From NCBI GenBank assembly GCA_030765065.1, contig CM060978.1:114681692-114745691 (forward strand): 64,000 nucleotides of DNA, in the 5' to 3' direction. Shown in pieces: positions 4,286-47,028 of the stretch. The notes under the pieces are model-generated. The model saw only the letters and a program-made list of their open reading frames with translations, was not told the origin of the DNA and ran no database searches. Made by a program: the position numbers and the translations under genes. Each line of letters begins with the position of its first letter. Within the stretch, counting starts at the first letter, position 1. The DNA comes from Deroplatys truncata (taxonomy: Eukaryota; Arthropoda; Insecta; Mantodea; Mantidae).

Positions 4286-4291
4286 TAGCTG
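4286..4291. repeat. Target-site duplication TAGCTG, left copy
   Basis: TAGCTG directly abuts AGTAGAAATAG, the left terminus of the palindrome. The identical hexamer directly follows the mirror-image right terminus at 21603-21608, and the sequences beyond both hexamers are unrelated. This is the signature of a single transposition event with a 6-bp staggered cut. Confidence 0.85.
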
Positions 4292-4323
4292 AGTAGAAAT
4301 AGAATAGCGACTTGAGCGCAAAG

Positions 4324-4520
4324 GAAGATGCCGACAAGCGATAAAGTTCTTTGTTCTACGCCGACAAGCCCCGCCCCCTCCCTTTGTGTGCTAACATACC
4401 GCCAGGTCTCGTGTCGTTAGGCCCCGCCCCCTCTCGCTTTGTGTGCTTACCTAATGCCGACAGTGTCTGTGCTAACAGGTCCTACCCCCCTCCCCAATGC
4501 GTTCTACTGTGGCGTCATGA
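4324..4520. repeat. GC-rich subterminal repeats, left arm
   Basis: Just inside the AT-rich terminus are imperfect ~53-bp repeats, each with a GCCCCGCCCCC box (4368-4378 and 4421-4431) followed by TTTGTGTGCT, plus GCCGACA words at several places. The GC boxes match the Sp1-type motif. The same organisation appears in the right arm and in the older relative near 3270-3340, so it is a conserved part of the family's ends. A role as transposase-binding or promoter sequence is possible but unproven. Confidence 0.7.
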
Positions 4521-5049
4521 CTTGAGGGAATTGTTTTCTCGCGTCCTGCCGCCCCTCGGCAAATTAATTAGGTAATGTTCGTCAAACATTTTCTTTAAGA
4601 CTACTAAGGCCTGAACATTGCATCCTCGAGCAATTAAGTTTTTTGAATAATGAATTGTTGACTGGAGCGTGAGTATAAGTAGTCTGCTCACGGGAACAGT
4701 CTGTCATGTAATGAGAACACGCAGCCTTCTTCTATCTGGGGAAAGCGCTTGTCCATTAGCTGAACATGTTAGACGCTTTCACCACATTAATAGGCTTTTA
4801 AGTTTACATTCCGGATCTGTTTACATACATTAGCGAACGACCTACTTCTGCCTGGCGGTAACGGTGACCTACATTAGCTGACCGTTAGACGCTTTCACCC
4901 CATTAGCGAACAATGTCAGTAATTGTTTTCCTAAGTGCTCTGCATAACTCTCAACACTTCAACATTTAGCGATGGAAATGATATAAAAAGCAGCAGCTTC
5001 TCCAATGAATTCCAAGTTGACCAGAATGGCCGGAATCGAATCTAGGAGT

Positions 5050-6919
5050 GATTACAAATTCAGCTTCTAATAACTCAGAGACTAATTACGATAAAGACGT
5101 CAAATAAAGTTTATTACATTAATGTCATTAGATAGTTTCTTGTGAATGTATATTTGGGTACATGGTGTCCAGGGTTCGAATACCGATAAAATGTAATTTA
5201 ATTATAAATTTAATAACTCCTAAACTAATTAAGATAAAGACGCCAAATAAACTTTATTGCCTTTATGTTATTAGGTAGTATCTTGTGGAGATGTAATTAG
5301 ATACCTGACGTTCTGGGTTCGAGCCTAATGTTTAAATCGTCATTATCTCAGAAACTAAGAGAGGTAGAGGAATTGACCGAAGCATGATTGATAGCTCCTA
5401 TGATGGGTAATTAATACTGTATATAATTTTTAATCAGTTGTCCTTATTTCGAATCCCGATCTTTCAATCACTTACTTATTTTTTCTCTATACTCTAGAAT
5501 ATGTCACTTAGATTGATGCTGTAACTGCATACAGCACCTTTAAACATATCAAACTAATATTGTAAATAATTTTGTTTCTGGTGTCCAGGGTTCGAATACC
5601 GATAAAATGTAATTTAATTATAAATTTAATAACTTCTAAACTAATTAAGATAAAGATGCCAAATAAACTTCATTGCCTTTATGTTATTAGGTGTTATCTT
5701 GTGGATGTGTAACTAGATACCTGACGTTCTGGGTTCGATCCTAATTCTTAAATTGCCATTATCTCAGAAACTAAGAGAGGTAGACGAGTGAACCAAAGCA
5801 TGATTGTTAGCTCCTATGATGGGTAATTAATACTGTATATAATTTTCAATCAGTTGTCCTTATTTCGAATCCCGATCTTTCAATCACTTACTTATTTTTT
5901 CTCTATACTCTAGAATATATCACTTAGATTGATGCTTTAACTGCATACAGCACCTTTAAACATATCAAACTAATATTGTAAATAATTTTGTTTCTGGTGT
6001 CCAGGGTTCGAATACCGATAAAATGTAGTTTAATTATAAATTTAATAACTTCTAAACTAATTAAGATAAAGACGCCAAATAAACTTTATTGCCTTTATGT
6101 TATTAGCTAGTATCTTGCGGAGGTATAATTAGATACCTGACGTTCTGGGTTCGAGCCTAATTTTAAATCGTCATTATCTCAGAAACTAAGAGAGGTAGAG
6201 GAGTTGACCAAAGCATGATTGATAGCTCCTATGATGGGCAATTAATACTGTATATAATTTTCAATCAGTTGTCCTTACTTCGAATCCCGATCTTTCAATC
6301 ACTTACTTATTTTTTCTCTATACTCTAGAATATATCACTTAGATTGATGCTGTAAATGCATACAGCACCCTTAAACATATCAAACTAATATTGTAAATAA
6401 TATTGGTTCTGGTGTCCAGGGTTCGAATACCGATAAAATGTAATTTAATTATAAATTTAATAACTTCTAAACTAATTAAGATAAAGATGCCAAATAAACT
6501 TTATTGCCTTTATGTTATTAGCTAGTATCTTGTGGAGGTGTAATTAGATAACTGACGTTCTGGGTTCGAGCCTAATTTTAAATCGTCATTATCTCAGAAA
6601 CTATGAGAGGTAGAGGAATTGACCAAAGCATGATTGATAGCTCCTATGAGGGGCAATTAATACTGTATATAATTTTCAATCAGCTGTCCTTACTTCGAAT
6701 CCCGATCTTTCAATCACTTACTTATTTTTTCTCTATACTCTAGAATATATCACTTAGATTGATGGTGTAAAGGCATACAGCACCCTTAAACATATCAAAC
6801 TAATATTGTAAATAATATTGGTTCTGGTGTCCAGGGTTCGAATACCGATAAAATGTAATTTAATTATAAATTTAATAACTCCTAAACTAATTAAGATAAA
6901 GACACCAAATAAACTTTTA
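5050..6919. repeat. 416-bp higher-order tandem repeat, left arm (4 full units plus flanks)
   Basis: The landmark GTGTCCAGGGTTCGAATACC recurs at 5165, 5581, 5997, 6412 and 6827, a period of 415-416 bp. Each unit holds three diverged subunits phased by a TTCGA core, for example 5175, 5318, 5448 and 5591 (spacings 143, 130, 143). The cores read GGTTCGAATACC, GGTTCGAGCC and TTCGAATCCC, all close to the tRNA B-box consensus GGTTCGANNCC. Sequence before the cores is also related between subunits (for example AACTAATTA.GATAAAGACG). The array ends abruptly at about 6919. The right arm has one unit fewer. Confidence 0.85.
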
Positions 6920-6954
6920 TAGGGGAAAGGATGCTCTCCTGAAACATTAGGTCT

Positions 6955-7545
6955 CTAGATAGAAGTATTTATAGTGGAGAGATAGGGAATACCAGGGCTG
7001 ATGCTAGGCTAGTCAGATGCTAAAGGAGGGAGGGATATGCTTTATACGAGAGAGATAGGGAACACAAGGAAAGATGCTATACTAAACAGGACTTGAAGGG
7101 TAGAATATGAGCGATATAGCAAACCGAGGAGAGGTATTAGGATAGGAGTTTTGAATGATGGAGTAGGCGTTTATATGCGAGAGATAGGGAATACGAGGGT
7201 CGATGCTAGGCTAGACGGTGTTGAATGAGGGAATGTATCTTATATGAGAGAGGTAGGGCAATATGAGGAGAAGTGCTAGGCTAGTCGGGAAGGTCTGAAT
7301 GAGAGAGTATACGTCTATATGGGAAAATATAGGGAAAACGAAGGTAGGTGCTAGGTTGAGAGAGTCTTCAAGGAGGAAAATGCATTTATATGAGAGCGGT
7401 AGGGTATACGAGGAGAGGTGCTAGTCTAGACATGGTTTGAGGATTAGAGTATACGTTTATATGGGAGAAATATGGAAAACGGGAGAGATACAAGGATAGA
7501 CAGAGATTGAAGGAAAAGGAATGTAGGTTTATACGGTAATATAGA
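6955..7545. repeat. ~72-bp degenerate tandem repeat, left arm
   Basis: About eight imperfect copies with a GAGAGATAGGGAA-type core recur at roughly 6979, 7052, 7109, 7181, 7248, 7320, 7393 and 7464. Each is followed by GAGG...GATGCTAGGCTAG and a purine-rich TGAATGAGGGA stretch leading to TATATGAG. The strong purine bias on this strand is unlike the flanks. The same array is inverted at 18765-19370. No coding sense is apparent. Confidence 0.75.
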
Positions 7546-8070
7546 GAGTAATTCGATTATAAAACTTTTCTCATCCAGCGTTACAACACTTTTATATACT
7601 TATTTTCCAAACCTTACAAACTTTATATTTGTTAAACAGTAGTGCGCGAGACGGAGAGGGACAAACAGTATATCGGTTTACAGTGAAGTATACGTCCTAA
7701 CCTATTCCCACCTTGTTTGTTCTGGATCTTCTCATTGTCTATCATCTAACGTAACCACGTAACAAGACGTAACACAGGAAATCATACATATGGCACATTA
7801 AAAAAAAATAAAGGTATATATAATGAAACATAAACAAGTAGACAGAGGGTCATCGATACATAGAAAACCAGGAGTTGTATGTACTGAGACCATAGATTAG
7901 TATAGGCAAACAACAAAGAAGTGAATTTATAGTGTAAATAGCCTAATATTTTCAAATATTATTATAGTCTAAAAGTATATAACTTAATTATGTATCGAGT
8001 ATTGAGAAATAAACGTTATTCATTATTCACTAATCTCAGATCACTGCAATTGTATTGAATCAATTCACAA
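7546..8070. other. Arm sequence without recognised feature (left)
   Basis: AT-rich unique arm DNA between the 72-bp array and the small gene block. It is mirrored almost perfectly at about 18240-18764 in the right arm. No gene, RNA or repeat is recognised. Confidence 0.5.
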
Positions 8071-8277
8071 TTGCTAATGCCATTCAACTTTCATTCGTCT
8101 CTGATACATAAAGAAATTGCAAAATGGAGAAGGACGAAAGTAATAAAAAGACTCAGGCAGCAAATTTTAAGAAAGAAGAGAAAGATATATGACCGACATT
8201 GTTTTGGAACACAAATTAGTGTTGAAAATAAAATGACTGATAGCTCTGCTAAGCGTAAGGAAGAGACATGGAAATAA
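8071..8277 (+). CDS. Small basic protein ORF, left-arm copy (68 aa)
   Basis: This is the mirror copy of the 18033-18239 ORF in the right arm and encodes the same 68 residues. The predicted peptide is strongly basic (motifs KWRRTK, RLRQQ, LRKKRKI) with a charged tail ending SAKRKEETWK. It runs towards the finger-protein gene on the opposite strand, and an AATAAA overlaps its TAA stop. I do not recognise a family. Perfect preservation in both arms may reflect arm-to-arm conversion or recent origin rather than selection. Equally it could be a chance ORF. Confidence 0.3.
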   Translation: MLMPFNFHSSLIHKEIAKWRRTKVIKRLRQQILRKKRKIYDRHCFGTQISVENKMTDSSAKRKEETWK

Positions 8278-8467
8278 ATTGCAAATGAATACAATTCTAG
8301 GTTAGAAAAAAGAAGATAAACAACATTCATGTAAACCAATTTTTAAAAATCAGTTTAACTGAATACATGTAAAAAACATATCACTTTACAAAAAGTAATG
8401 CAGACAACATTTATTTTTTATAAACATTATCCTATTACATTCCTTTACAAAAAACCATACATATTTC

Positions 8468-8677
8468 CTAAAGGCAAAGGTGATAGTCTAGACATTCTAA
8501 ACACTCAGTTATATAATCATATACATCACGCAGAAAGAGACCTGCATTATCAGTAAAAAAACTAAACATCTCAACAATGTCTGAATGATGTATTTTATAA
8601 GTACAAGTTTTTTGATATTTCAAAGTTCCTGTTAACCATGGCAGTAATTGATTAACACAATTTCTCGATCCTGTCAT
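8468..8677 (-). CDS. 69-aa ORF downstream of the finger gene, left-arm copy
   Basis: Identical in sequence to the 17632-17841 ORF of the right arm and placed the same way: its ATG overlaps the stop of the upstream finger-protein frame (ATGA). In this arm the upstream frame is interrupted, so if the two are read from one message only the right arm would be fully functional. The peptide has several cysteines and a hydrophobic or aromatic character (for example YDYITECLECLDYH) but no motif I can name. Confidence 0.35.
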   Translation of the reverse strand: MTGSRNCVNQLLPWLTGTLKYQKTCTYKIHHSDIVEMFSFFTDNAGLFLRDVYDYITECLECLDYHLCL

Positions 8678-9141
8678 GCTATAACTTTAGATGCTTTCAG
8701 CTTACTTATAATTTCCTCAATCTCTTGTGTGTGACTATTATTACCAGCATCCCTCGACGCAATTAGTAACCTCAATATATTTACTAGTCTATTTGGATTT
8801 TCAAGCGTTGATATCACTGAATCATCATCATATGAAGATTTCATATTCCCGCAACTTCCGATGTATCCAGATTTTTCACCAACAGTAGTCTCCAGTGAAG
8901 GACAGAGGCTTGATCCGGTATAACATTCCCCTCTATACATCTTCGGATCTTCAAGTGCAGGTGAGAGAGTCGATTCAGTATAACATGTTGCTCTATGAAA
9001 CTAAAATCTTGACAAATAACGATTCTTAAAAATCCGCCCGCATACACAGCATCTAATAACGCGTTTTCCTTCATGTGTAATGTATGAAAAATCGAGTTTC
9101 TCATTCGTCAGTTGCACAGATTTTCTCGGGCAGTAGCTCAT
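8674..9141 (-). pseudogene. C2HC-finger protein gene, left-arm copy with a premature stop
   Basis: Same length and frame as the intact right-arm gene (468 bp). Codon 47, inside the finger between the CxxC pair and the histidine, is TAG instead of AGG (9001-9003 on the plus strand), and codon 42 is TAT instead of TCT. Translation from the normal start would stop after 46 residues and lack the H and C ligands. An internal Met at codon 68 could only give the finger-less C-terminal part. Apart from a few substitutions the rest is unchanged, so the lesion is recent and arm-specific. Confidence 0.65.
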
Positions 9142-9569
9142 GCTAAAACTAAAAGAAATTAAATGAATACGTGAATGCTAACGCTCGAAGGAATTAAAAG
9201 CGAATGAATGAATTCATAACACGCACCTATGTATATATCCAGGATGAGGACGACGGAGGGAATTGCGATCAATGCATAGCAGGGAGAAAGGATACTCTCT
9301 TGAAACATTAGTCATCTAGACAATTATTGTTCACGGAGCCTGTAGACGTCAGGTTGAATGGGACAGACCTCAGGTTCAAATCTTTAAGGGTACGGACCCC
9401 TGGCTTTTGCCTGGCATGTATACTAAACCATCCTAACAGCGAAACATTACATTACAACGACACGTAACCAGAACATGACGAGTGCGAGCATGGAAAAAGG
9501 ATGCTCTCTGGGAACATTGGTGGAAAAGGATGCTCTCTGGAAACAGTCGCCATCCGCACAACGGATTGT

Positions 9570-9836
9570 CCCTAACATTTCCAGATTTCGGAACGTTCAA
9601 CATCGTGACGCGCTCCTGTCATCTACATTTCAACGAAATTTTACCTCCTGAATTAGTTTGGTGCTCTGTATAGAACCTCAGAATATGCATTACGCTGCGT
9701 GTCCCTAGCGTTTCCAGCTCCTGAATCGTTCCAGCTAGTGGAATGCCTCTACCATCTTCATGTCAACGATCTGTTACTCTGAATTTAAGTTTGGTGATCT
9801 GTATAGACCTGTACAACATGCATTACGCTATGTAAC
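9570..9836. repeat. 133-bp duplication that merges into the minisatellite, left arm
   Basis: Two tandem, diverged copies (9570-9702 and 9703-9836) share CCCTA.C.TTTCCAG at their start, GTTTGGTG.TCTGTATAGA near the end, and a final TATGCATTACGCTGCGTGT versus CATGCATTACGCTATGTAA. The end of the second copy is already one minisatellite unit, so the 21-bp repeat appears to have expanded from the tail of this duplication. Confidence 0.7.
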
Positions 9837-12800
9837 AGACTCATCACGCTATGTAACAACACGATCACGCTATGTAACAACATGTTCACGCTATGTAACA
9901 ACATGATCACGCTATGTAACAACATGATCACGCTATGTAACAACATGATCACGCCATGTAACAACATGATCACGCTATGTAACAACATGATCACGCTATG
10001 TAACAACATGATCACGCTATATAACAACATGACCACGCTATGTAACAAAACGATCACGCTAAGTAACAACACGATCACGCTATGTAACAACACGATCACG
10101 CTATGTAACAACATGATCACGCTATGTAACAACCTGAGTACGCTATGTAACAACATGATCACGCCATGTAACAACATGATCACGCTATGTAACAACCTGA
10201 TCACGCTATGTAACAACATGATCACGCTATGTAACAACATGATCACGCTATGTAACAACATGATCACGCTATGTAACAGACTCATCACGCTATGTAACAA
10301 CATGATCACGCTATGTAACAACCTGAGCACGCTATGTAACATGATCACGCTATGTAACAACATGAACACGCTATGTAACAATACGATCACGCTATGTAAC
10401 AACATGAACACGCTATGTAACAACATGTTCACGCTATGTAACAAACTGATCACGCTATGTAACAACATGATCACGCTATGTAACAACATGATCACACTAT
10501 GTAACAACATGATTACGTTATGTAACAACCTGAGCACGCTATGTAACAACATGATCACGCTATGTAACAACCTGATCACGCTATGTAACATGTTCACGCT
10601 ATGTAACAAAACGATCACGCTATGTAACAACATGTTCACGCTATGTAACAACATGTTCACGCTATGTAACAACATGATCACGCTATGTAACAACCTGATC
10701 ACGCCATGTAACAACATGATTACGCTATGTAACAACTGATCACGCTATGTAACAACATGATCACGCTATGTAACAACCTGATCACGCTATGTAACAACCT
10801 GATCACGCTATGTAACAACATGTTCACGCTATGTAACAACTCGATCACGCTATGTAACAACACGATCACGCTATGTAACAACACGATCACGCTATGTAAC
10901 AACCTGATCACGCTATGTAACAACATGTTCACGCTATGTAACAACATGATCACGCTATGTAACAACCTGATCACGCTATGTAACAACATGATTACGCTAT
11001 GTAACAACTGATCACGCTATGTAATCACACGATCACGCTATGTAACAACACGATCACGCTATGTAACAACTGATCACGCTATGTAACATCATGAACACGC
11101 TATGTAACAATACGATCATGCTATGTAACAACCTGAGCACGCTATGTAACAACATGATCACGCTATGTAACAACATGAACACGCTATGTAACAACCTGAT
11201 CACGCTATGTAACAACATGACCACGCTATGTAACAACCTGATCATGCTATGTAACATGTTCACGCTATGTAACAACACGATCACGCTATGTAACAAAACG
11301 ATCACGCTATGTAACAACACGATCACGCTATGTAACAACACGATCACGCTATGTAACAACTGATCACGCTATGTAACAACATGATCACGCTATGTAACAA
11401 CCTGAGTACGCTATGTAACAACATGATCACGCCATGTAAAAACTGATCACGCTATGTAACAACATGCTCAAGCTATGTAACAACTGATCACGCTATGTAA
11501 CAACATGATCACGCTATGTAACAACCTGAGCACGCTATGTAACAATCTGATCACGCTATGTAACAACACGATCACGCTATGTAACAACTCATCACGCTAT
11601 GTAACAATATGATCACGCTATGTAACAACCTGAGTACGCCATGTAACAACATGATCACGCCATGTAACAACTGATCACGCTATGTAACAACATGCTCAAG
11701 GTATGTAACAACTGATCACGCTATGTAACAACATGATCACGCTATGTAACAACCTGAGCACGCTATGTAACAATCTGATCACGTTATGTAACAACTGATC
11801 ACGCTATGTAACAATATGATTACGCTATGTAACAACATGATCACGCTATGTAACAACATGTTCACGCTATGTAACAACATGACCACGCTATGTAACAAAA
11901 CGATCACGCTATGTAACAACACGATCACGCTATGTAACAAAACGATCACGCTATGTAACAACACGATCACGCTATGTAACAACACAATCACGCTATGTAA
12001 CAACTGATCACGCTATGTAACAACATGATCACGCTATGTAACAACCTGAGTATGCTATGTAACAACATGATCACGCCATGTAACAACTGATCACGCTATG
12101 TAACAACATGCTCAAGCTATGTAACAACTGATCACCCTATGTAACAACATGATCACGCTATGTAACAACATGAGCACGCTATGTAACAACATGATCACGT
12201 TATGTAACAACTGATCACGCTATGTAACAACCTGATTACGCTATGTAACAACATGATCACGCTATGTAATAACATGTTCACGCTATGTAACAACATGATC
12301 ACGCTATGTAACAACATGTTCAAGCTATGTAACAACATGATCACGCTATGTAACAACATGATGACGCTATGTAACAACCTGATCACGCTATGTAACATGT
12401 TCACGCTATGTAACAACTGATCACGCTATGTAACAACATGATCACGGTATGTAACAACCTGAGCACGCTATGTAACAACATGATCACGCTATGTAACAAC
12501 ATGTTCACGCTATGTAACATATTCACGCTATGTAACAACTGATCACGCTATGTAACAACATGATCACGGTATGTAACAACCTGAGCACGCTATGTAACAA
12601 CATGATCACGCTATGTAACAACATGTTCACGCTATGTAACAACACGATCACGCTATGTGACAACACGATCACGCTATGTAACAACATGGACACGTTATGT
12701 AACAACATGGACACGCTATGTAACAACATGAACACGCTATGTAACAATACGATCAAGCTATGTAACAACCTGAGCACGCTATGTAACAACATGATCACGC

Positions 12801-12954
12801 AATGTAGCAACATGAACACTCTATGTAACAACCTGAGCATGCTATGTAACAACATGATCACGCTATGTAACAACCTGTTCACGCTATGTAACAACATGAT
12901 CACGCTATGTAACAACATGATCACGCTATGTAACAACATGATCACGCTATGTAA
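9814..12954. repeat. 20/21-bp minisatellite array, left arm (~3.14 kb)
   Basis: About 150 tandem copies of a unit whose consensus is ATGATCACGCTATGTAACAAC. The CGCTATGTAACA part is nearly invariant, while the first bases vary between a few classes (ATGATC, CTGAGC, ATGTTC, ACGATC, AACTGATC). Most units are 21 bp; the AACTGATC type is 20 bp and some are 18 bp. Runs of 21- and 18-bp units leave both strands open for up to about 300 codons, giving heptad-like LLHSVIM and MITLCNN peptides. I regard these as a by-product of the period. A longer-range period of ~228 bp is visible between 11340 and 12130. Confidence 0.92.
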
Positions 12955-13113
12955 ATAGGTTGGACCATTTAAGTTGAGGCTATACAATATATCCAAAACT
13001 AAGCGTTGTGGAAAGAAATGTCTTTAATAAAACTTGATTGATATTATGACGAAAGTAAATGCCGCTAGTCATGTTTCGTTTGGAGGACGTAGTGAGGGTC
13101 ATTTCAGGGTCTT

Positions 13114-13149
13114 TTTAAATGGGACCCTAATTGTAGGTTCCCATTTAAA
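13114..13149. repeat. Hairpin at the exact centre of the palindrome
   Basis: TTTAAATGGGACCCTA pairs with TAGGTTCCCATTTAAA around the loop ATTG (13130-13133), with one mismatch. Outside this stem the two arms continue pairing through 12955-13315 (CCAAAACTAAGCG against CGCTTAGTTTTGG) and then through the minisatellite. One small asymmetry of about 9 bp lies at 13151-13162. The palindrome therefore has essentially no spacer, as expected if it arose by fold-back copying of one arm. Confidence 0.85.
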
Positions 13150-13315
13150 CAAATAAATTTACCCAAAATGACCCTCATAACGACCTCCAAACGAAACACG
13201 ACTAGCGGCATTTACTTTCGTCATAATATCAATCAAGTTTTATTAAAGACATTTCTTTCTACAACGCTTAGTTTTGGATATATTGTATAGCCTCAACTTA
13301 AATGGTCCACCCTAT

Positions 13316-16300
13316 TTACATAACGTGATCATGTTGTTACAAAGCGTGATCATGTTGTTACATAGCGTGATCATGTTGTTACATAGCGTGATCAGGTTGT
13401 TACATAGCGTGATCGTGTTGTTACATAGCGTGATCGTGTTGTTACATAGCGTGAACAGGTTGTTACATAGCGTGATCATGTTGTTACATAGCATGCTCAG
13501 GTTGTTACATAGAGTGTTCATGTTGCTACATAGCGTGATCATGTTGTTACATAGCGTGCTCAGGTTGTTACATAGCTTGATCGTATTGTTACATAGCGTG
13601 TTCATGTTGTTACATAGCGTGTCCATGTTGTTACATAACGTGTCCATGTTGTTACATAGCGTGATCGTGTTGTCACATAGCGTGATCGTGTTGTTACATA
13701 GCGTGAACATGTTGTTACATAGCGTGATCATGTTGTTACATAGCGTGCTCAGGTTGTTACTTACCGTGATCATGTTGTTACATAGCGTGATCAGTTGTTA
13801 CATAGCGTGAACATGTTACATAGCGTGAACATGTTGTTACATAGCGTGATCATGTTGTTACATAGCGTGCTCAGGTTGTTACATACCCTGATCATGTTGT
13901 TACATAGCGTGATCAGTTGTTTCATAGCGTGAACATGTTACATAGCGTGATCAGGTTGTTACATAGCGTCATCATGTTGTTACATAGCGTGATCATGTTG
14001 TTACATAGCTTGAACATGTTGTTACATAGCGTGATCATGTTGTTACATAGCGTGAACATGTTGTTACATAGCGTGATCATGTTGTTACATAGCGTAATCA
14101 GGTTGTTACATAGCGTGATCAGTTGTTACATAACGTGATCATGTTGTTACATAGCGTGCTCATGTTGTTACATAGCGTGATCATGTTGTTACATAGGGTG
14201 ATCAGTTGTTACATAGCTTGAGCATGTTGTTACATAGCGTGATCAGTTGTTACATGGCGTGATCATGTTGTTACATAGCATACTCAGGTTGTTACATAGC
14301 GTGATCATGTTGGTACATAGCGTGATCAGTTGTTACATAGCGTGATTGTGTTGTTACATAGTTTGATCGTGTTGTTACATAGCGTGATCGTTTTGTTACA
14401 TAGCGTGATCGTGTTGTTACATAGCGTGATCGTTTTGTTACATAGCGTGGTCATGTTGTTACATAGCGTGAACATGTTGTTACATAGCGTGATCATGTTG
14501 TTACATAGCGTAATCATATTGTTACATAGCGTGATCAGTTGTTACATAACGTGATCAGATTGTCACATAGCGTGCTCAGGTTGTTACATAGCGTGATCAT
14601 GTTATTACATAGCGTGATCAGTTGTTACATAACTTGAGCATGTTGTTACATAGCGTGATCAGTTGTTACATGGCGTGATCATGATGTTACATGGCGTACT
14701 CAGGTTGTTACATAGCGTGATCATGTTGTTACATAGCGTGATCAGTTGTTACATAGCGTGATCGTGTTGTTACATAGCGTGATCAGATTGTTACATAGCG
14801 TGCTCAGGTTGTTACATAGCGTGATCATGTTGTTACATAGCGTGATCAGTTGTTACATAGCTTGAGCATGTTGTTACATAGCGTGATCAGTTTTTACATG
14901 GCGTGATCATGTTGTTACATAGCGTACTCAGGTTGTTACATAGCGTGATCATGTTGTTACATAGCGTGATCAGTTGTTACATAGCGTGATCGTGTTGTTA
15001 CATAGCGTGATCGTGTTGTTACATAGCGTGATCGTTTTGTTACATAGCGTGATCGTGTTGTTACATAGCGTGAACATGTTACATAGCATGATCAGGTTGT
15101 TACATAGCGTGATCATGTTGTTACATAGCGTGATCAGGTTGTTACATAGCGTGTTCATGTTGTTACATAGCGTGATCATGTTGTTACATAGCGTGCTCAG
15201 GTTGTTACATAGCATGATCGTATTGTTACATAGCGTGTTCATGATGTTACATAGCGTGATCATATTGTTACATAGCGTGATCAGTTGTTACATAGCGTGA
15301 TCGTGTTGTTACATAGCGTGATCGTGTGATTACATAGCGTGATCAATTGTTACATAGCGTATTCATGTTGTTGCATAGCGTGATCAGGTTGTTACATAGC
15401 GTGATCATGTTGTTACATAGCGTGAACATGTTGTTACATAGCGTGATCAGGTTGTTACATAGCGTGATCGTGTTGTTACATAGCGTGATCGTGTTGTTAC
15501 ATAGCGTGAACATGTTGTTACATAGCGTGATCAGGTTGTTACATAGCGTGATCAGGTTGTTACATAGCGTGATCATGTTGTTACATAGCGTGATCAGTTG
15601 TTACATAGCGTAATCATGTTGTTACATAGCGTGATCAGGTTGTTACATAGCGTGATCATGTTGTTACATAGCGTGAACATGTTGTTACATAGCGTGAACA
15701 TGTTGTTACATAGCGTGATCGTTTTGTTACATAGCGTGAACATGTTACATAGCGTGATCAGGTTGTTACATAGCGTGATCATGTTGTTACATAGCGTGAT
15801 CAGGTGGTTACATAACGTAATCATGTTGTTACATAGTGTGATCATTTTGTTACATAGCGTGATCATGTTGTTACATAGCGTGATCAGTTTGTTACATAGC
15901 GTGAACATGTTGTTACATAGCGTGTTCATGTTGTTACATAGCGTGATCGTATTGTTACATAGCGTGTTCATGTTGTTACATAGCGTGATCATGTTACATA
16001 GCGTGATCATGTTACATAGCGTGATCATGTTGTTACATAGCGTGATGAGTCTGTTACATAGCGTGATCATGTTGTTACATAGCGTGATCATGTTGTTACA
16101 TAGCGTGATCATGTTGTTACATAGCGTGATCAGGTTGTTACATACCGTGATCATGTTGTTACATGGCGTGATCATGTTGTTACATAGCGTACTCAGGTTG
16201 TTACATAGCGTGATCATGTTGTTACATAGCGTGATCGTGTTGTTACATAGCGTGATCGTGTTGTTACATAGCGTGATCGTTTTGTTACATAGCGTGGTCA

Positions 16301-16496
16301 TGTTGTTACATAGCGTGATCATGTTGTTACATAGCGTGATCATGTTGTTACATGGCGTGATCATGTTGTTACATAGCGTGATCATGTTGTTACATAGCGT
16401 GATCATGGTGTTACATAGCGTGAACATGTTGTTACATAGCGTGATCGTGTTGTTACATAGCGTGATGAGTCTGTTACATAGCGTAATGCATGTTGT
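13316..16496. repeat. 20/21-bp minisatellite array, right arm (~3.18 kb)
   Basis: Inverted counterpart of the left array. On this strand the unit reads GTTGTTACATAGCGTGATCAT. The order of unit variants largely mirrors the left array, for example the outermost GATGAGTC, GATCGTG, GAACATG series, but single units have been gained or lost, making this array about 40 bp longer. The CTTGAGCATG marker variant recurs near 14218, 14634 and 14862, showing the same long-range register as the left. Long two-strand open frames occur here too and are not credited as genes. Confidence 0.92.
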
Positions 16497-16746
16497 ACAG
16501 GTCTATACAGATCACCAAACTTAAATTCAGAGTAACAGATCGTTGACATGAAGATGGTAGAGGCATTCCACTAGCTGGAACGATTCAGGAGCTGGAAACG
16601 CTAGGGACACGCAGCGTAATGCATATTCTGAGGTTCTATACAGAGCACCAAACTAATTCAGGAGGTAAAATTTCGTTGAAATGTAGATGACAGGAGCGCG
16701 TCACGATGTTGAACGTTCCGAAATCTGGAAATGTTAGGGACAATCC
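16480..16746. repeat. 133-bp duplication beside the minisatellite, right arm
   Basis: Mirror copy of the two-unit duplication at 9570-9836. It carries the same GGTCTATACAGATCACCAAAC and GGTTCTATACAGAGCACCAAAC pair and ends at the first minisatellite units. Confidence 0.65.
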
Positions 16747-17071
16747 GTTGTGCGGATGGCGACTGTTTCCAGAGAGCATCCTTTTCCACTAATGTTCCCA
16801 GAGAGCATCCTTTTTCCATGCTCGCACTCGTCATGTTCTGGTTACGTGTCGTTGTAATGTAATGTTTCGCTGTTAGGATGGTTTAGTATACATGCCAGGC
16901 AAAAGCCAGGGGTCCGTGCCCTTAAAGATTTGAACCTGAGGTCTGTCCCATTCAACCTGACGTCTACAGGCTCCGTGAACAATAATTGTCTAGATGACTA
17001 ATGTTTCAAGAGAGTATCCTTTCTCCCTGCTATGCATTGATCGCAATTCCCTCCGTCGTCCTCATCCGGGA

Positions 17072-17077
17072 TATATA
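17072..17077 (+). promoter_or_regulatory. TATATA box upstream of the finger gene
   Basis: TATATA lies 91 bp before the ATG at 17168 in otherwise mixed sequence. It is a plausible core promoter for the short transcription unit, but based on motif and spacing alone. A pyrimidine-rich TTTCTTTTAG just before the ATG could instead be a splice acceptor. Confidence 0.3.
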
Positions 17078-17167
17078 CATAGGTGCGTGTTATGAATTCA
17101 TTCATTCGCTTTTAATTCCTTCGAGCGTTAGCATTCACGTATTCATTTAATTTCTTTTAGTTTTAGC

Positions 17168-17635
17168 ATGAGCTACTGCCCGAGAAAATCTGTGCAACTG
17201 ACGAATGAGAAACTCGATTTTTCATACATTACACATGAAGGAAAACGCGTTATTAGATGCTGTGTATGCGGGCGGATTTTTAAGAATCGTTCTTTGTCAA
17301 GATTTAGGTTTCATAGAGCAACATGTTATACTGAATCGACTCTCTCACCTGCACTTGAAGATCCGAAGATGTATAGAGGGGAATGTTATACCGGATCAAG
17401 CCTCTGTCCTTCACTGGAGACTACTGTTGGTGAAAAATCTGGATACATCGGAAGTTGCGAGAATATGAAATCTTCATATGATGATGATTCAGTGATATCA
17501 ACGCTTGAAAATCCAAATAGACTAGTAAATATATTGAGGTTACTAATTGCGTCGAGGGATGCTGGTAATAATAGTCACACACAAGAGATTGAGGAAATTA
17601 TAAGTAAGCTGAAAGCATCTAAAGTTATAGCATGA
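17168..17635 (+). CDS. C2HC zinc-finger-like protein of the palindromic element (155 aa)
   Basis: This is the only gene-like frame in the palindrome with a recognisable motif. Residues 31-53 have the spacing C31-x2-C34-x14-H49-x3-C53, consistent with a zinc-binding C2HC finger (it starts RCCVCGRIF and ends FHRATC). The segment from C53 to E64 (CYTESTLSPALE) is repeated 20 residues later at C73-E84 (CYTGSSLCPSLE), so a 60-bp internal duplication has occurred. The C-terminal third is charged and probably helical (EIEEIISKLKASK). The first ATG follows a possible TATA element and gives the longest frame. The stop overlaps the start of a 69-aa frame (ATGA). The left-arm copy is broken at codon 47. 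DNA binding at the element ends is a guess from the finger; I cannot assign a family. Confidence 0.55.
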   Translation: MSYCPRKSVQLTNEKLDFSYITHEGKRVIRCCVCGRIFKNRSLSRFRFHRATCYTESTLSPALEDPKMYRGECYTGSSLCPSLETTVGEKSGYIGSCENMKSSYDDDSVISTLENPNRLVNILRLLIASRDAGNNSHTQEIEEIISKLKASKVIA

Positions 17636-17841
17636 CAGGATCGAGAAATTGTGTTAATCAATTACTGCCATGGTTAACAGGAACTTTGAAATATCAAAAA
17701 ACTTGTACTTATAAAATACATCATTCAGACATTGTTGAGATGTTTAGTTTTTTTACTGATAATGCAGGTCTCTTTCTGCGTGATGTATATGATTATATAA
17801 CTGAGTGTTTAGAATGTCTAGACTATCACCTTTGCCTTTAG
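17632..17841 (+). CDS. 69-aa ORF overlapping the finger gene stop
   Basis: The start ATG shares bases with the upstream TGA (ATGA), an arrangement more usual in compact viral or transposon genomes than in animal genes. The 69-residue product has five cysteines and a hydrophobic or aromatic C-terminus. An AATAAA polyadenylation signal (17894-17899) follows 53 bp after its stop, so both frames could lie on one short message. It might instead be a second exon or a frameshifted extension of the 155-aa protein; no classic slippery heptamer is visible at the overlap. No family recognised. Confidence 0.4.
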   Translation: MTGSRNCVNQLLPWLTGTLKYQKTCTYKIHHSDIVEMFSFFTDNAGLFLRDVYDYITECLECLDYHLCL

Positions 17842-17893
17842 GAAATATGTATGGTTTTTTGTAAAGGAATGTAATAGGATAATGTTTATAAAA

Positions 17894-17899
17894 AATAAA
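17894..17899 (+). terminator. AATAAA polyadenylation signal after the two-ORF unit
   Basis: AATAAA occurs 53 bp downstream of the 69-aa frame. About 130 bp further on, the opposing 68-aa frame has its own AATAAA on the other strand (18032-18037), which gives a compact convergent gene pair. Confidence 0.4.
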
Positions 17900-18032
17900 T
17901 GTTGTCTGCATTACTTTTTGTAAAGTGATATGTTTTTTTACATGTATTCAGTTAAACTGATTTTTAAAAATTGGTTTACATGAATGTTGTTTATCTTCTT
18001 TTTTCTAACCTAGAATTGTATTCATTTGCAAT

Positions 18033-18239
18033 TTATTTCCATGTCTCTTCCTTACGCTTAGCAGAGCTATCAGTCATTTTATTTTCAACACTAATTTGTG
18101 TTCCAAAACAATGTCGGTCATATATCTTTCTCTTCTTTCTTAAAATTTGCTGCCTGAGTCTTTTTATTACTTTCGTCCTTCTCCATTTTGCAATTTCTTT
18201 ATGTATCAGAGACGAATGAAAGTTGAATGGCATTAGCAA
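18033..18239 (-). CDS. Small basic protein ORF, right-arm copy (68 aa)
   Basis: A 68-residue lysine- and arginine-rich frame on the minus strand, convergent with the finger gene. Its TAA stop overlaps an AATAAA (TTTATT at 18032-18037 on the plus strand). It is identical to the left-arm copy. The basic composition could suit a nucleic-acid-binding peptide, but there is no recognised domain, and an 82-aa hydrophobic frame overlaps on the other strand. Coding status is uncertain. Confidence 0.3.
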   Translation of the reverse strand: MLMPFNFHSSLIHKEIAKWRRTKVIKRLRQQILRKKRKIYDRHCFGTQISVENKMTDSSAKRKEETWK

Positions 18240-18764
18240 TTGTGAATTGATTCAATACAATTGCAGTGATCTGAGATTAGTGAATAATGAATAACGTTTA
18301 TTTCTCAATACTCGATACATAATTAAGTTATATACTTTTAGACTATAATAATATTTGAAAATATTAGGCTATTTACACTATAAATTCACTTCTTTGTTGT
18401 TTGCCTATACTAATCTATGGTCTCAGTACATACAACTCCTGGTTTTCTATGTATCGATGACCCTCTGTCTACTTGTTTATGTTTCATTATATATACCTTT
18501 ATTTTTTTTTAATGTGCCATATGTATGATTTCCTGTGTTACGTCTTGTTACGTGGTTACGTTAGATGATAGACAATGAGAAGATCCAGAACAAACAAGGT
18601 GGGAATAGGTTAGGACGTATACTTCACTGTAAACCGATATACTGTTTGTCCCTCTCCGTCTCGCGCACTACTGTTTAACAAATATAAAGTTTGTAAGGTT
18701 TAGAAAATAAGTATATAAAAGTGTTGTAACGCTGGATGAGAAAGGTTTTATAATCGAATTACTC
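18240..18764. other. Arm sequence without recognised feature (right)
   Basis: Mirror of about 7546-8070. It is AT-rich, with no gene or repeat recognised. Confidence 0.5.
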
Positions 18765-19370
18765 TCTATATTACCGTATAAACCTACATTCCTTTTCCTT
18801 CAATCTCTGTCTATCCTTGTATCTCTCCCGTTTTCCATATTTCTCCCATATAAACGTATACTCTAATCCTCAAACCATGTCTAGACTAGCACCTCTCCTC
18901 GTATACCCTACCGCTCTCATATAAATGCATTTTCCTCCTTGAAGACTCTCTCAACCTAGCACCTACCTTCGTTTTCCCTATATTTTCCCATATAGACGTA
19001 TACTCTCTCATTCAGACCTTCCCGACTAGCCTAGCACTTCTCCTCATATTGCCCTACCTCTCTCATATAAGATACATTCCCTCATTCAACACCGTCTAGC
19101 CTAGCATCGACCCTCGTATTCCCTATCTCTCGCATATAAACGCCTACTCCATCATTCAAAACTCCTATCCTAATACCTCTCCTCGGTTTGCTATATCGCT
19201 CATATTCTACCCTTCAAGTCCTGTTTAGTATAGCATCTTTCCTTGTGTTCCCTATCTCTCTCGTATAAAGCATATCCCTCCCTCCTTTAGCATCTGACTA
19301 GCCTAGCATCAGCCCTGGTATTCCCTATCTCTCCACTATAAATACTTCTATCTAGAGACCTAATGTTTCA
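18765..19370. repeat. ~72-bp degenerate tandem repeat, right arm
   Basis: Inverted counterpart of the left-arm array, pyrimidine-rich on this strand, with a TTCCCTATCTCTC core and CTAGCCTAGCATC in most copies. It shows no copy-number change against the left arm that I can see. Confidence 0.75.
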
Positions 19371-19391
19371 GGAGAGCATCCTTTCCCCTAT

Positions 19392-20850
19392 AAAAGTTTA
19401 TTTGGTGTCTTTATCTTAATTAGTTTAGGAGTTATTAAATTTATAATTAAATTACATTTTATCGGTATTCGAACCCTGGACACCAGAACCAATATTATTT
19501 ACAATATTAGTTTGATATGTTTAAGGGTGCTGTATGCATTTACACCATCAATCTAAGTGATATATTCTAGAGTATAGAGAAAAAATAAGTAAGTGATTGA
19601 AAGATCGGGATTCGAAGTAAGGACAGCTGATTGAAAATTATATACAGTATTAATTGCCCCTCATAGGAGCTATCAATCATGCTTTGGTCAATTCCTCTAC
19701 CTCTCATAGTTTCTGAGATAATGACGATTTAAAATTAGGCTCGAACCCAGAACGTCAGTTATCTAATTACACCTCCACAAGATACTAGCTAATAACATAA
19801 AGGCAATAAAGTTTATTTGGCATCTTTATCTTAATTAGTTTAGAAGTTATTAAATTTATAATTAAATTACATTTTATCGGTATTCGAACCCTGGACACCA
19901 GAACCAATATTATTTACAATATTAGTTTGATATGTTTAAGGGTGCTGTATGCATTTACAGCATCAATCTAAGTGATATATTCTAGAGTATAGAGAAAAAA
20001 TAAGTAAGTGATTGAAAGATCGGGATTCGAAGTAAGGACAACTGATTGAAAATTATATACAGTATTAATTGCCCATCATAGGAGCTATCAATCATGCTTT
20101 GGTCAACTCCTCTACCTCTCTTAGTTTCTGAGATAATGACGATTTAAAATTAGGCTCGAACCCAGAACGTCAGGTATCTAATTACACCTCCACAAGATAC
20201 TAGCTAATAACATAAAGGCAATAAAGTTTATTTGGCGTCTTTATCTTAATTAGTTTAGAAGTTATTAAATTTATAATTAAACTACATTTTATCGGTATTC
20301 GAACCCTGGACACCAGAAACAAAATTATTTACAATATTAGTTTGATATGTTTAAAGGTGCTGTATGCAGTTAAAGCATCAATCTAAGTGATATATTCTAG
20401 AGTATAGAGAAAAAATAAGTAAGTGATTGAAAGATCGGGATTCGAAATAAGGACAACTGATTAAAAATTATATACAGTATTAATTGCCCATCATAGGAGC
20501 TATCAATCATGCTTTGGTCAACTCCTCTACCTCTCTTAGTTTCTGAGATAATGACGATTTAAACATTAGGCTCGAACCCAGAACGTCAGGTATCTAATTA
20601 CATCTCCACAAGATACTACCTAATAACATAAAGGCAATAAAGTTTATTTGGCGTCTTTATCTTAATTAGTTTAGGAGTTATTAAATTTATAATTAAATTA
20701 CATTTTATCGGTATTCGAACCCTGGACACCATGTACCCAAATATACATTCACAAGAAACTATCTAATGACATTAATGTAATAAACTTTATTTGACGTCTT
20801 TATCGTAATTAGTCTCTGAGTTATTAGAAGCTGAATTTGTAATCACTCCT
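19392..20850. repeat. 416-bp higher-order repeat, right arm (3 full units plus flanks)
   Basis: CCCTGGACACC landmarks occur near 19480, 19896, 20312 and 20728, giving three full units against four in the left arm. The unit with the TGTAACTAGATACC and GATTGTTAGC variants (left 5581-5996) has no counterpart, so the arms differ by one whole unit. This explains most of the ~370-bp difference in arm length. Confidence 0.85.
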
Positions 20851-21379
20851 AGATTCGATTCCGGCCATTCTGGTCAACTTGGAATTCATTGGAGAAGCTG
20901 CTGCTTTTTATATCATTTCCATCGCTAAATGTTGAAGTGTTGAGAGTTATGCAGAGCACTTAGGAAAACAATTACTGACATTGTTCGCTAATGGGGTGAA
21001 AGCGTCTAACGGTCAGCTAATGTAGGTCACCGTTACCGCCAGGCAGAAGTAGGTCGTTCGCTAATGTATGTAAACAGATCCGGAATGTAAACTTAAAAGC
21101 CTATTAATGTGGTGAAAGCGTCTAACATGTTCAGCTAATGGACAAGCGCTTTCCCCAGATAGAAGAAGGCTGCGTGTTCTCATTACATGACAGACTGTTC
21201 CCGTGAGCAGACTACTTATACTCACGCTCCAGTCAACAATTCATTATTCAAAAAACTTAATTGCTCGAGGATGCAATGTGCAGGCCTTAGTAGTCTTAAA
21301 GAAAATGTTTGACGAACATTACCTAATTAATTTGCCGAGGGGCGGCAGGACTCGAGAAAACAATTCCCTCAAGTCATGA

Positions 21380-21570
21380 CTCCACAGTAGAACGCATTGG
21401 GGAGGGGGGTAGGACCTGTTAGCACAGACACTGTCGGCATTAGGTAAGCACACAATGCGAGAGGGGGCGGGGCCTAACGACACGAGACCTGGCGGTATGT
21501 TAGCACACAAAGGGAGGGGGCGGGGCTTGTCGGCGTAGAACAAAGAACTTTATCGCTTGTCGGCATCTTC
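21380..21570. repeat. GC-rich subterminal repeats, right arm
   Basis: Mirror of the left subterminal block, with GGGGGCGGGGC boxes at 21463-21473 and 21516-21526 in ~53-bp repeats carrying AGCACACAA and GTCGGC words. It differs from the left arm by only isolated bases. Confidence 0.7.
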
Positions 21571-21602
21571 CTTTGCGCTCAAGTCGCTAATCTATTTCTA
21601 CT

Positions 21603-21608
21603 TAGCTG
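21603..21608. repeat. Target-site duplication TAGCTG, right copy
   Basis: TAGCTG immediately follows the right terminus CTATTTCTACT and matches 4286-4291 exactly. Confidence 0.85.
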
Positions 21609-24372: not shown

Positions 24373-25112
24373 GAATTAATTGCCGTATATTGGGCAGGGT
24401 TGGAAAGGTAGAATCAGATGACTGAAAAATTCAATGCATAGTCGGGATTTGAACTAAGGATTCCCGGTCTACGTCCGGTTGCTCTAACCACTGAGCTACC
24501 ATGGCAACATGCCGGCACGACATTAAATTCTCCAACTGATTCGCATTTTCCCCGGTAAACCACAAGGAGATCTCAAATTGTATTGAGATGTCATACCCCA
24601 ATGGCGACTTACATTCTTTGTAAGTACTTTAAGTCCCGGGCTTTATAGTTGCAGCCACTATTAGGTCAATTAATGGAATTAATTGTTCTTTCACACAAGC
24701 CGTGTGTTGGGCAGAGTTGGAAAGGTAGAATCAGGTGACTGAAAAATTCAATGCCATAGCCGGGATTTGAACCACGGATCTCTCCGTCCAGTTGCTCTAA
24801 CCACTGAGCTACCATGGCAATATGCCGACACGACATTAAATTCTCCAACTGATTCGCATTTTTCCCGGTAAACCACAAGGAGATCTCAAATTGTATTGAG
24901 GTGTCATACCCCAATGGCGACTTACATTCTTTGTAAGTACTTTAAGTCCCGGGCTTTATAGTTGCAACCACTATTAGGTCAATTAATGGAATTAATTGTT
25001 CTTTCACACAAGTCGTGTGTTGGGCAGAGTTGGAAAGGTAGAATCAAATGACTGAAAAATTAAATGCCATAGCCGGGATTTGAACCATGGATCTCCCGGT
25101 CTCCGTCCGGTT
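24373..25112 (-). mobile_element. tRNA-derived SINE family B, head-to-tail trimer with target duplication
   Basis: Three tandem copies start at about 24373, 24674 and 24989 (period 301-315 bp); the third is cut within its tRNA-like head. On the minus strand each complete head has a classical A box (GTAGCTCAGTGGTTAGAGCA) and B box (GTTCAAATCCCG) separated as in a tRNA. The tRNA-like part is followed by a shared tail containing CAGTCA.CTGATTCTACC. The whole block is flanked by TTGCTTAAATAATG at 24359-24372 and 25111-25124, which implies one insertion of a multimeric SINE. Confidence 0.8.
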
Positions 25113-45387: not shown

Positions 45388-47028
45388 CAGAATGTAAGAA
45401 AAATGTACGGCACAAATTGCAGGACACATTCCTGACACGTAGACGAAGAAATTATGTTATATGAACATGGGTCTGGAAACGCTTTGTTACCATGTTACAA
45501 CTCATTTTCTCCAACTCATTAATCATAGGAAACACACAAGAATAAAACGTACCAGCATACCACATGCAACTCTTTCTCGCGGGAGATCTTCAATATGCCC
45601 TCCGTGAGCATTGATGACATGCACCAACCCGCCGTCGTAGTGAATTCCGGATGCGTTGATGTATCCCTGGAGTATTGCGTATGGTTTCGCGGCCTTCCGT
45701 AATACGGGCACGGAGACTCTGAACATCTGGTACTGGGATTCGATACACAAGAGCTTGCAAATGCCCCCACAAATAAAAGTCCAGTGGGTTTAGGTCCGGG
45801 GAGCGTGGAGGCCAGGCAATTGGTCCACCTCTACCTATCCATCTGTCACCGAATCTGTTATTTAGAAGTCGTCGGACATTAACACTAAAATGAGGAGGTG
45901 CTCCATTGTGCATGAAGTACATGTTTTGTCGCACAGCTAAAGACACATCTGCTAACAGATCAGGTAGAACATTCTCTACGAAATTGTGGTAACTTTGTCC
46001 ATTGAGCCTGGGTGGAAGAACGTGAGACCCTACCAAATAGTCACCAACAATGCCGGCTCAAACACTAACAGAAAACCTTTGTTGATGACTTACTTCAACA
46101 GTTGGGTGAGAATTGACGTCAGCGCATACATGTCGATTGTAATAATTTACAATCTGATTTCGTTCAAACGACGCCTCATCTGTGAACAGCACCGTTGCAC
46201 TAAAATTAGTTATGACTCTTTGTTGCATAAACCATTCGCAGAAACGTACCCAAGCAGGAAAATCAGCTACTGATAGTGCCTGCACACGCTGTAAATGGTA
46301 TGGATACAGCCGGACCTCGTGTAACACTCGCCAGACAGTCATGTGGTCAACATTTATTGTTGCAGCTACTTGTCTTGTACGGACACTAGGGTCGTCGTCA
46401 ACTGCCTGAAGAATTGCCGCCTCCCGTTGCGGCGTCCTCGTCCTTCTAGGCCTCCCCCGGTCGCAAGTATCAGGCTGAAATGCCCCATGTTCCCTAAGAC
46501 GATCAATGGCTTCAAACGCTTTCCTGTCGGGGCACCTTCGTCCTGGAAATCTCTTCCGGTACAAACGTTGAGCGCAAGCGCCATTGCCGTCTGCTAATCC
46601 ATACATCAAATGGGCATCTGCCATCTCTGCATTTGTGTACACTGCCATTGCACGAGCCAAGACTGTGATCAACTCTACTAGTACGTAGTAACTCGTGTGC
46701 TTGCGAAGGTCGTACTGCTCACTGGAACAGTTGATGTTACCTGTAAACAAGCAATGACGTAAGTCGCATGGCAACAGGCACATGTAAAAGAAAACACTGG
46801 CGGTGCACTTACGATAATGACAACGAAACCAGACGTAACCAAGAGTGCATGTTCCCCATGATTCTAACGTTCTGTTCGTGTGTGTTTCCCATGATGAATG
46901 AGTTAGAGAAAACGAGTTGTAACATGTAACAAAGCGTTTCCAGACCCATGTTCATATAACATAATTTCTTCGTCTACGTGTCAGGAATGTGTCCTGCAAT
47001 TTGTGCCGTACACTTTTGTTACATTCCG
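45388..47028 (-). mobile_element. Mariner-superfamily element (DD41D spacing) with ~150-bp inverted repeats
   Basis: TA dinucleotides flank it (45386-45387 and 47029-47030). The ends, CAGAATGTAAGAAAAATGTA on the left and the mirror of CGGAATGTAACAAAAGTGTA on the right, start inverted repeats of about 150 bp. Both include GCACAAATTGCAGGACACAT, GACACGTAGACGAAGAAATT and CATGGGTCTGGAAACGCTTT. At 1641 bp with one gene it has the full structure of an autonomous element, and it is the best preserved transposon in the window. Confidence 0.9.
45590..46648 (-). pseudogene. Mariner-superfamily transposase, nearly complete but inactivated
   Basis: It starts at MAVYTNAEMADAHLMYGLAD. The N-terminal HTH region includes ACAQRLYRKRFPGRRCPDRK, GRPRRTRTPQREAAIL and a second HTH ending TVWRVLHE. 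The catalytic domain has FTDEASF (first Asp), YFMHNGAPPHF and WPPRSPDLNPLDFYLWG (third Asp), then YRIPVPDVQSLRARI. Counting from the mutated second position to the Asp of NPLD leaves 41 residues between, matching the DD41D group (rosa/Visitor-like in the literature). Three lesions are visible: TGA in place of a probable Trp (46058-46060), Asn for the second catalytic Asp, and a one-base insertion near 45615 that shifts the C-terminal GGHIEDL. About 350 residues, normal for the family. Confidence 0.9.

Follow-up and report, generated by a model that had tools for sequence, protein, structure and literature searches.

A giant palindromic transposable element of the mantis Deroplatys truncata that reads as a non-autonomous Polinton/Maverick satellite

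How could a transposable element that is almost wholly one inverted repeat have arisen, and how would it multiply while its two arms stay alike? This question was raised by a 17.3-kb palindromic element in a 64,000-nt stretch of the genome of Deroplatys truncata (contig CM060978.1, positions 114,681,692-114,745,691, in the single 4.29-Gb assembly GCA_030765065.1), which is called the window here and from whose first base its positions are counted. As its terminal 622 bp match those of a Polinton resident in the same genome and the family is flanked by 6-bp duplications, the element reads as a non-autonomous satellite of the Polinton/Maverick group and not as a relative of Foldback. The best explanation that we can offer, which we hold with moderate confidence, is that such a satellite would be mobilised in trans and its arms re-equalised via a hairpin.

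The palindrome, its family and a resident Polinton

A preliminary description of the locus had claimed a near-perfect inverted repeat with arms of 8.5-8.8 kb, and self-alignment confirmed it: positions 5579-20731 pair with themselves at 94.8% identity (15,246 columns, arrays included), the outer 2.2 kb give an inverted self-alignment of 97.9%, and the arms measure approximately 8.84 kb (left, with one extra 415-bp unit) and 8.47 kb (right). From the outside in, each arm consists of a terminal region, 415-bp repeats, 145-bp repeats, a short open reading frame (ORF) and an array of 21-bp units of approximately 3.1 kb, and the three different tandem arrays that had been described were present on both sides (Table 1). 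The defined termini and the exact TAGCTG flanking duplication were also there, the described span of 4286-21608 taking in both copies of this target-site duplication (TSD), and in a search for an empty site the window flanks overlapped in exactly these 6 bp (query 145-150). This single assembly yielded no empty site: the three places that the search gave were both insertion flanks and a 39-bp partial match elsewhere. The centre (12955-13315), rightly described as a hairpin, folds as single-stranded DNA to -176.6 kcal/mol versus a mean of -29.6 for shuffled sequence. What had been called a gene block came down to one ORF per arm, intact on the right and carrying a stop on the left; this 167-aa frame was the sole ORF of at least 90 aa outside the arrays. 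Among ORFs of that size outside the 21-bp arrays the window element held no replication, integrase, POLB, ATPase or capsid ORF, and thus falls short of the coding set of an autonomous Polinton.

The element was found to belong to a dispersed, multi-copy family, as a transposable element should. A 28-bp end pattern (at most 2 mismatches) gave 172 forward and 169 reverse matches, 341 in all, in the 4.29 Gb (control 0 + 0), which rules out chance, and a 34-bp centre pattern gave 561 (control 0), with fragments included in both counts; the outcome that had been named as fatal to the transposon claim, that no other copy with these ends exists, was excluded by the end search. The centre matches outnumber the end matches, so that the genome probably also holds fragments or additional palindrome subfamilies whose ends have diverged more. 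With a 201-bp end query, 2,080 first-look candidates yielded 40 scored matches, and 34 of these 40 formed 17 inward-facing pairs; among 100 end-pattern places listed, 80 formed 40 inward pairs of 6.3-23.1 kb, with 20 unpaired within the list. Leaving aside the two ends of the window element itself, similarity in the other 38 scored end matches started 0-4 bases outside the first base of the element (query 3-7, that base being query 7).

Ten end pairs were fetched and compared with the window element. Eight were giant palindromes with aligned arms of 5.7-8.8 kb at 95-98% identity (arrays included), the middle being not covered in two of them (L009/L010 and L027/L028); one, L021/L022, with inverted ends of 1,624 bp, is apparently derived by deletion; and one, L017/L018, combines inverted ends of 761 bp with an interior wholly unlike the palindromes. 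The 6-bp duplication that had been proposed as a check on other copies was perfect, and different in each case, in all ten elements that could be tested (8 palindromes, the deletion derivative and L017/L018), a sample made up of the window element and nine of the ten fetched pairs, with L019/L020, incomplete on the right, outside the count. The centre lay 2 to 1,195 bp from the element midpoint in seven palindromes checked. Foldback chimeric long reads exist, and the palindrome might on that account be put down to an assembly or sequencing artefact, or else to a local inverted duplication; the hundreds of dispersed matches, the perfect TSDs and these centre positions make this scarcely credible, and the copies with TSDs refute it.

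The L017/L018 element is 17,151 bp long, with palindrome-type ends and a 6-bp TSD of its own. Over the Pfam cut-off its ORFs matched an rve integrase (E 5.8e-10), a Pox_A32 ATPase (7e-7) and a double jelly-roll (DJR) capsid protein (2.7e-109), together with a minor protein matching PLA2 and Adeno_PX (E 9.5e-13 and 7.2e-7), and a 1045-aa protein carries the POLB-like motif strings DINNLYG, KKMNNAVYG and YMDTDS in that order. The gene set is that of a Polinton. In a genome search all 44 of 44 scored matches to the 1045-aa protein (self included; 27,161 first-look candidates) were at least 96% identical, and ten end pairs (five placed by eye, five by script) enclose the POLB-like ORF, open in six and with one stop in four, within 16,830-17,151 bp. 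The first 622 bp of the palindrome are 94% identical to the ends of L017/L018; with these ends the palindromes presumably carry the transposition signals of the resident Polinton. A very different POLB lineage (L029-L058, with DVCSLYP and YFDTDS motifs) is also abundant in the genome, with many frames open, and several Polinton lineages seem to be present.

Foldback-like elements are described as having long inverted repeats with tandem arrays inside (PMC4168063), and the palindromes resemble Foldback and Galileo in their long, repeat-containing inverted repeats. Filing them there, as P-superfamily transposons with very long repetitive arms, was however rejected and is in our view very improbable: the same source gives TSDs of 7-8 bp for Galileo (PMC4168063) against 6 bp in 10 of 10 elements here, Galileo has a P-superfamily transposase and other ends whereas these ends are those of the resident Polinton, and in the window element, the copy that was scanned, the single ORF of 90 aa or more outside the arrays had no Pfam match over the cut-off.

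Likeness of the two arms and its timing

In three segments outside the arrays, mean divergence between the two arms of one element was 0.37, 0.13 and 0.27% (9, 9 and 8 elements), as compared with 3.4, 3.5 and 2.2% between elements; in the window element itself the arms differed at 5/420, 2/1384 and 7/1508 sites. An arm was strictly nearest to its own partner in 18/18, 18/18 and 15/16 rows that had one. At 60 of the 62 arm-arm differences the differing base was absent from all other rows, which indicates that the arms were identical at some late point and that what differs now is newer. Whole modules follow the same rule, with a different outer module present in both arms of L019/L020 and of L023/L024, and with another module replacing the ORF in both arms of L025/L026. 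In this last element the replacing module (L025:4473-5900 and its mirror in L026) stands in place of the zinc-finger-like ORF, and its longest frame is approximately 134 aa from stop to stop.

The 167-aa frame that this module replaces has a CxxC...H...C cluster and no Pfam match over the cut-off. Its last 41 aa share 37 of 41 residues (90%) with the C-terminal end of a 273-aa ORF adjoining the integrase ORF of L017/L018, so that the palindrome has either taken up or retained the end of a Polinton gene. Our guess is that the product binds DNA, exploits the helper or has a regulatory role. A search of viral contigs with this ORF, as a single-protein query that reaches close relatives only, gave four pattern matches and no confirmed relative. 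Matches to the ORF protein were open in 150 of 150 frames, these being the best 150 of 7,333 candidates and hence biased.

Changes in this ORF were counted in seven elements. Those confined to one arm comprised 1 synonymous change, 7 nonsynonymous changes and 3 stops, much as would be expected without selection, and those present in both arms comprised 8 synonymous-only and 9 nonsynonymous codons and 0 stops (Fisher p 0.049); codon 59 was recounted by hand, the script totals having been 1/7/2 for one-arm and 8/10/1 for both-arm changes. With stops among the one-arm changes and none among the both-arm changes, equalisation while the ORF was still selected, in a mobile phase, would be favoured over continuous conversion after insertion. 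The pairwise ratio of nonsynonymous to synonymous differences (pN/pS) was 0.37, came mostly from one diverged element and was computed before codon 59 was recounted. The support for selection on the short ORF is weak and has one counter-example, L023/L024, an eighth element with the ORF module that lies outside the count and has a 1-nt frameshift in both arms, which would speak against constant selection; the sample is small.

The arms could instead owe their identity to ordinary arm-to-arm chromosomal gene conversion after insertion, as in Y-chromosome palindromes, with replication uninvolved. Long palindromes are known conversion substrates, and such conversion would equalise arms equally well, would likewise produce differences that are mostly private and a core at the axis that is less converted, and fits the both-arm frameshift of L023/L024. 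Only the one-arm ORF pattern argues otherwise, as neutral changes and stops alike would be carried into both arms if conversion were continuous, and stops made up 3 of 11 one-arm changes and none of those in both arms. The 761-bp ends of L017/L018, lying approximately 15.6 kb apart, are equally alike (99.87% identical); this argues weakly against such conversion, as these ends could convert too. We consider post-insertion conversion unlikely as the cause of arm identity.

Origin, copying and size of the palindromes

All 40 scored centres (window included; 4,201 first-look candidates) were 97-100% identical over their full length in one orientation, and only approximately 89-90% when the same centres were read in the opposite direction. 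The imperfections of the centre are thus inherited, and one palindrome was ancestral to the copies examined. Thirteen columns at which the arms differ were common to 7-8 of 8 elements, and all of them fall between bases 133 and 157 of the 180-base half centre, within approximately 50 bp of the axis; the scan of the core (13087-13183) covered its left part, where they are 13 of 19 such columns, 7 of the 13 belonging to one indel. Further out in the half centre, 24 of 27 arm-difference columns occur in one or two elements and the other three in 3, 4 and 6. One palindrome, L025/L026, was found without the canonical centre, its strand switch lying at approximately 7650 inside the 21-bp array with a 3-nt loop. 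This is probably a central deletion; an independent second palindromisation was rejected, as the axis (approximately 7309) and the switch do not coincide and a deletion of the centre is simpler.

In protein-primed replicons such as adenovirus, phi29 and invertrons, the displaced strand anneals its terminal inverted repeats (TIRs) and so forms a panhandle, which provides the origin for the next round. Under the explanation that we favour, a replicating strand with one Polinton end and other DNA would once have snapped back, and its copying would have given a self-complementary molecule that carries this end twice, once on each side. From the shared ends and the TSD length, the integrase and protein-primed polymerase of the resident Polinton would then move and copy the palindrome in trans. 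As the whole molecule is an inverted repeat, its displaced strand could fold completely, into a hairpin of approximately 8.5 kb whose terminal duplex could serve as an origin of replication; mismatches between the arms would be exposed to repair in that hairpin, and the arms would be re-equalised in each cycle except for approximately 50 bp around the axis, which is the pattern observed. After insertion, the arms would mutate independently. More speculatively, the small zinc-finger-like protein encoded by each arm may bind the ends or regulate.

The palindromes measured (n=18, nine fetched and nine found through a centre match between two ends, one with its centre deleted) had a median size of 17.2 kb with a standard deviation (SD) of 1.9 kb, and 14 of the 18 lay within 2 kb of the mean of the POLB-bearing copies (17,038 bp, SD 81, n=10). 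A size of approximately 17 kb would fit encapsidation in a Polinton particle. In a test for a packaging constraint on size, compensation between inner and outer lengths was not significant (rho -0.28, p 0.46, n 9). In its fullest form, the proposal would make the element a satellite replicon that the helper polymerase copies, the hairpin re-equalises in each cycle, the helper capsid carries and the helper integrase inserts, while the protein that it encodes acts on the shared ends; we advance this version tentatively, and would not rely on it.

A number of observations weigh against this explanation as a whole. Trans-mobilisation, an extrachromosomal form and encapsidation are all predictions, and the missing length compensation is joined by a scatter of palindrome sizes far greater than that of the POLB-bearing copies (SD 1.9 against 0.08 kb). 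The POLB label of the 1045-aa protein draws on three motif strings and the company of genes: Pfam DNA_pol_B_2 was not matched, whole or in fragments, and a profile of the genome's other POLBs matches this protein in N-terminal parts and not at the catalytic motifs. In blastp, 9 ORFs of the L029-L058 POLB lineage did not match the protein; PHROGs and PDB sequence searches gave nothing informative for it, and viral contigs gave no pattern match to it as a single-protein query, which reaches close relatives only. The arms are not equal throughout, with 415-bp unit counts differing by one unit between the arms in 4 of 9 palindromes and array lengths differing strongly between the arms in several of 12 element pairs measured. 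In blastn, the window arm and L017/L018 had just the ends, a short repeat of the ends and approximately 104 bp in common, so that most arm DNA would lie outside L017/L018-derived sequence; on the same comparison, a half-Polinton snapback, in which the arms are half of the helper genome, was rejected.

This unlike interior, the palindrome's own ORF and the excess of centre over end matches could also point to an independent virus-like replicon with its own replication (for example hairpin-ended or telomere-resolved) that acquired Polinton ends by recombination. The copies are however integrated, with Polinton-type ends and TSDs, and no long ORF fit for a polymerase, initiator or resolvase was found in the window element, so that we judge such a replicon improbable.

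Direct observation of Polinton replication in animals is, to our knowledge, lacking. If the trans-mobilised satellite is real, arms that were identical until late and an axis core never equalised would be a natural record of single-strand fold-back during copying, and protein-primed, strand-displacement replication of Polintons could be put to the test on genome sequence. The element would then also count as evidence for Polinton satellites, akin to defective interfering genomes, as a step in the continuum between viruses and transposons. The family further shows that kilobase palindromes, which are usually unstable, can multiply in a chromosomal genome.

Features of the window and comparison with known systems

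Table 1. Parts of the palindromic element and their positions in the window.
Feature	Position	Strand	Remark
Whole palindromic element	4292-21602		17,311 bp, near-palindrome; ends AGTAGAAATAG / CTATTTCTACT
Target-site duplication TAGCTG, left copy	4286-4291		
Target-site duplication TAGCTG, right copy	21603-21608		
Left terminal region, common to Polinton L017/L018	4292-4913	+	94% identity, 622 bp
Right terminal region, mirror of 4292-4913	20981-21602	-	
415-bp tandem repeats, left arm	5163-6917	+	4.2 units
415-bp tandem repeats, right arm	19393-20731	-	3.2 units
145-bp tandem repeats, left arm	7152-7481	+	
145-bp tandem repeats, right arm	18829-19160	-	
ORF, left-arm copy	8674-9177	-	stop at codon 59 private to left arm
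ORF, right-arm copy	17132-17635	+	intact, 167 aa stop to stop, 155 aa from Met at 17168
21-bp tandem array, left arm	9813-12954	+	~151 units
21-bp tandem array, right arm	13316-16496	-	~153 units
Palindrome centre	12955-13315		361-bp imperfect hairpin; 97-98% identity in 39 other scored places
Asymmetric core around axis	13087-13183, boundaries approximate		shared arm-difference columns

Outside the element, a 313-bp tandem unit in 2.3 copies (24382-25095) holds a tRNA-like sequence, and the one match of Rfam at gathering threshold over the window was tRNA-like RF00005 (24752-24818, minus strand); the unit is probably a tRNA-derived short interspersed element (SINE) in tandem. Two ORFs on the minus strand at 45590-46951 carry a PPRSPDLNPLDFYLWG-type motif and resemble a Tc1/mariner-like transposase, in what is apparently a broken DNA transposon.

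In published Mavericks the TSDs are 6 bp long and the end motifs are (AG)3 or (AGT)2, and intact vertebrate ones average 16.9 kb with TIRs of 46-1,447 bp (PMC8097293). The palindrome, whose end AGTAGA is one base off (AGT)2, resembles them in its 6-bp TSDs, its AGTAG.../...CTACT ends, its size of approximately 17 kb and the approximately 0.6 kb of terminal sequence in common, so that TSD, terminal motif or TIR and shared ends all agree with a Polinton. It differs in being almost wholly inverted repeat and in having no integrase, POLB, ATPase or capsid ORF found, which sets it apart from an autonomous member. The suggestion that it may be an undescribed element type thus holds for its unusual form as a giant palindrome and not for its placement, as the Polinton/Maverick-type ends and TSDs give it a home; its peculiarity lies in a form that is palindromic, non-autonomous and subject to concerted evolution. 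No non-autonomous, palindromic or foldback Polinton/Maverick was found among the open-access papers listed, which were the range of the search; subscription papers and Repbase lie outside it and may name non-autonomous ones.

Palindromic derivatives of the yeast plasmid pGKL1 exist. For invertron-type linear plasmids, terminal-protein priming and panhandle or racquet intermediates are described (PMC1864894). These are plasmids and not chromosomal transposons. The replication of adeno-associated virus (AAV) is hairpin-primed and not protein-primed. Its populations are reported to include self-complementary subgenomic snapback genomes whose replication draws on functions provided in trans (PMC8235507). 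The palindrome would be like these in being self-complementary and, as we infer here, served in trans, whereas they are particles of a virus population and it is an integrated, dispersed family. If this likeness holds, the element would be the Polinton counterpart of the defective snapback genomes of AAV, but one that is stably inherited in hundreds of chromosomal copies.

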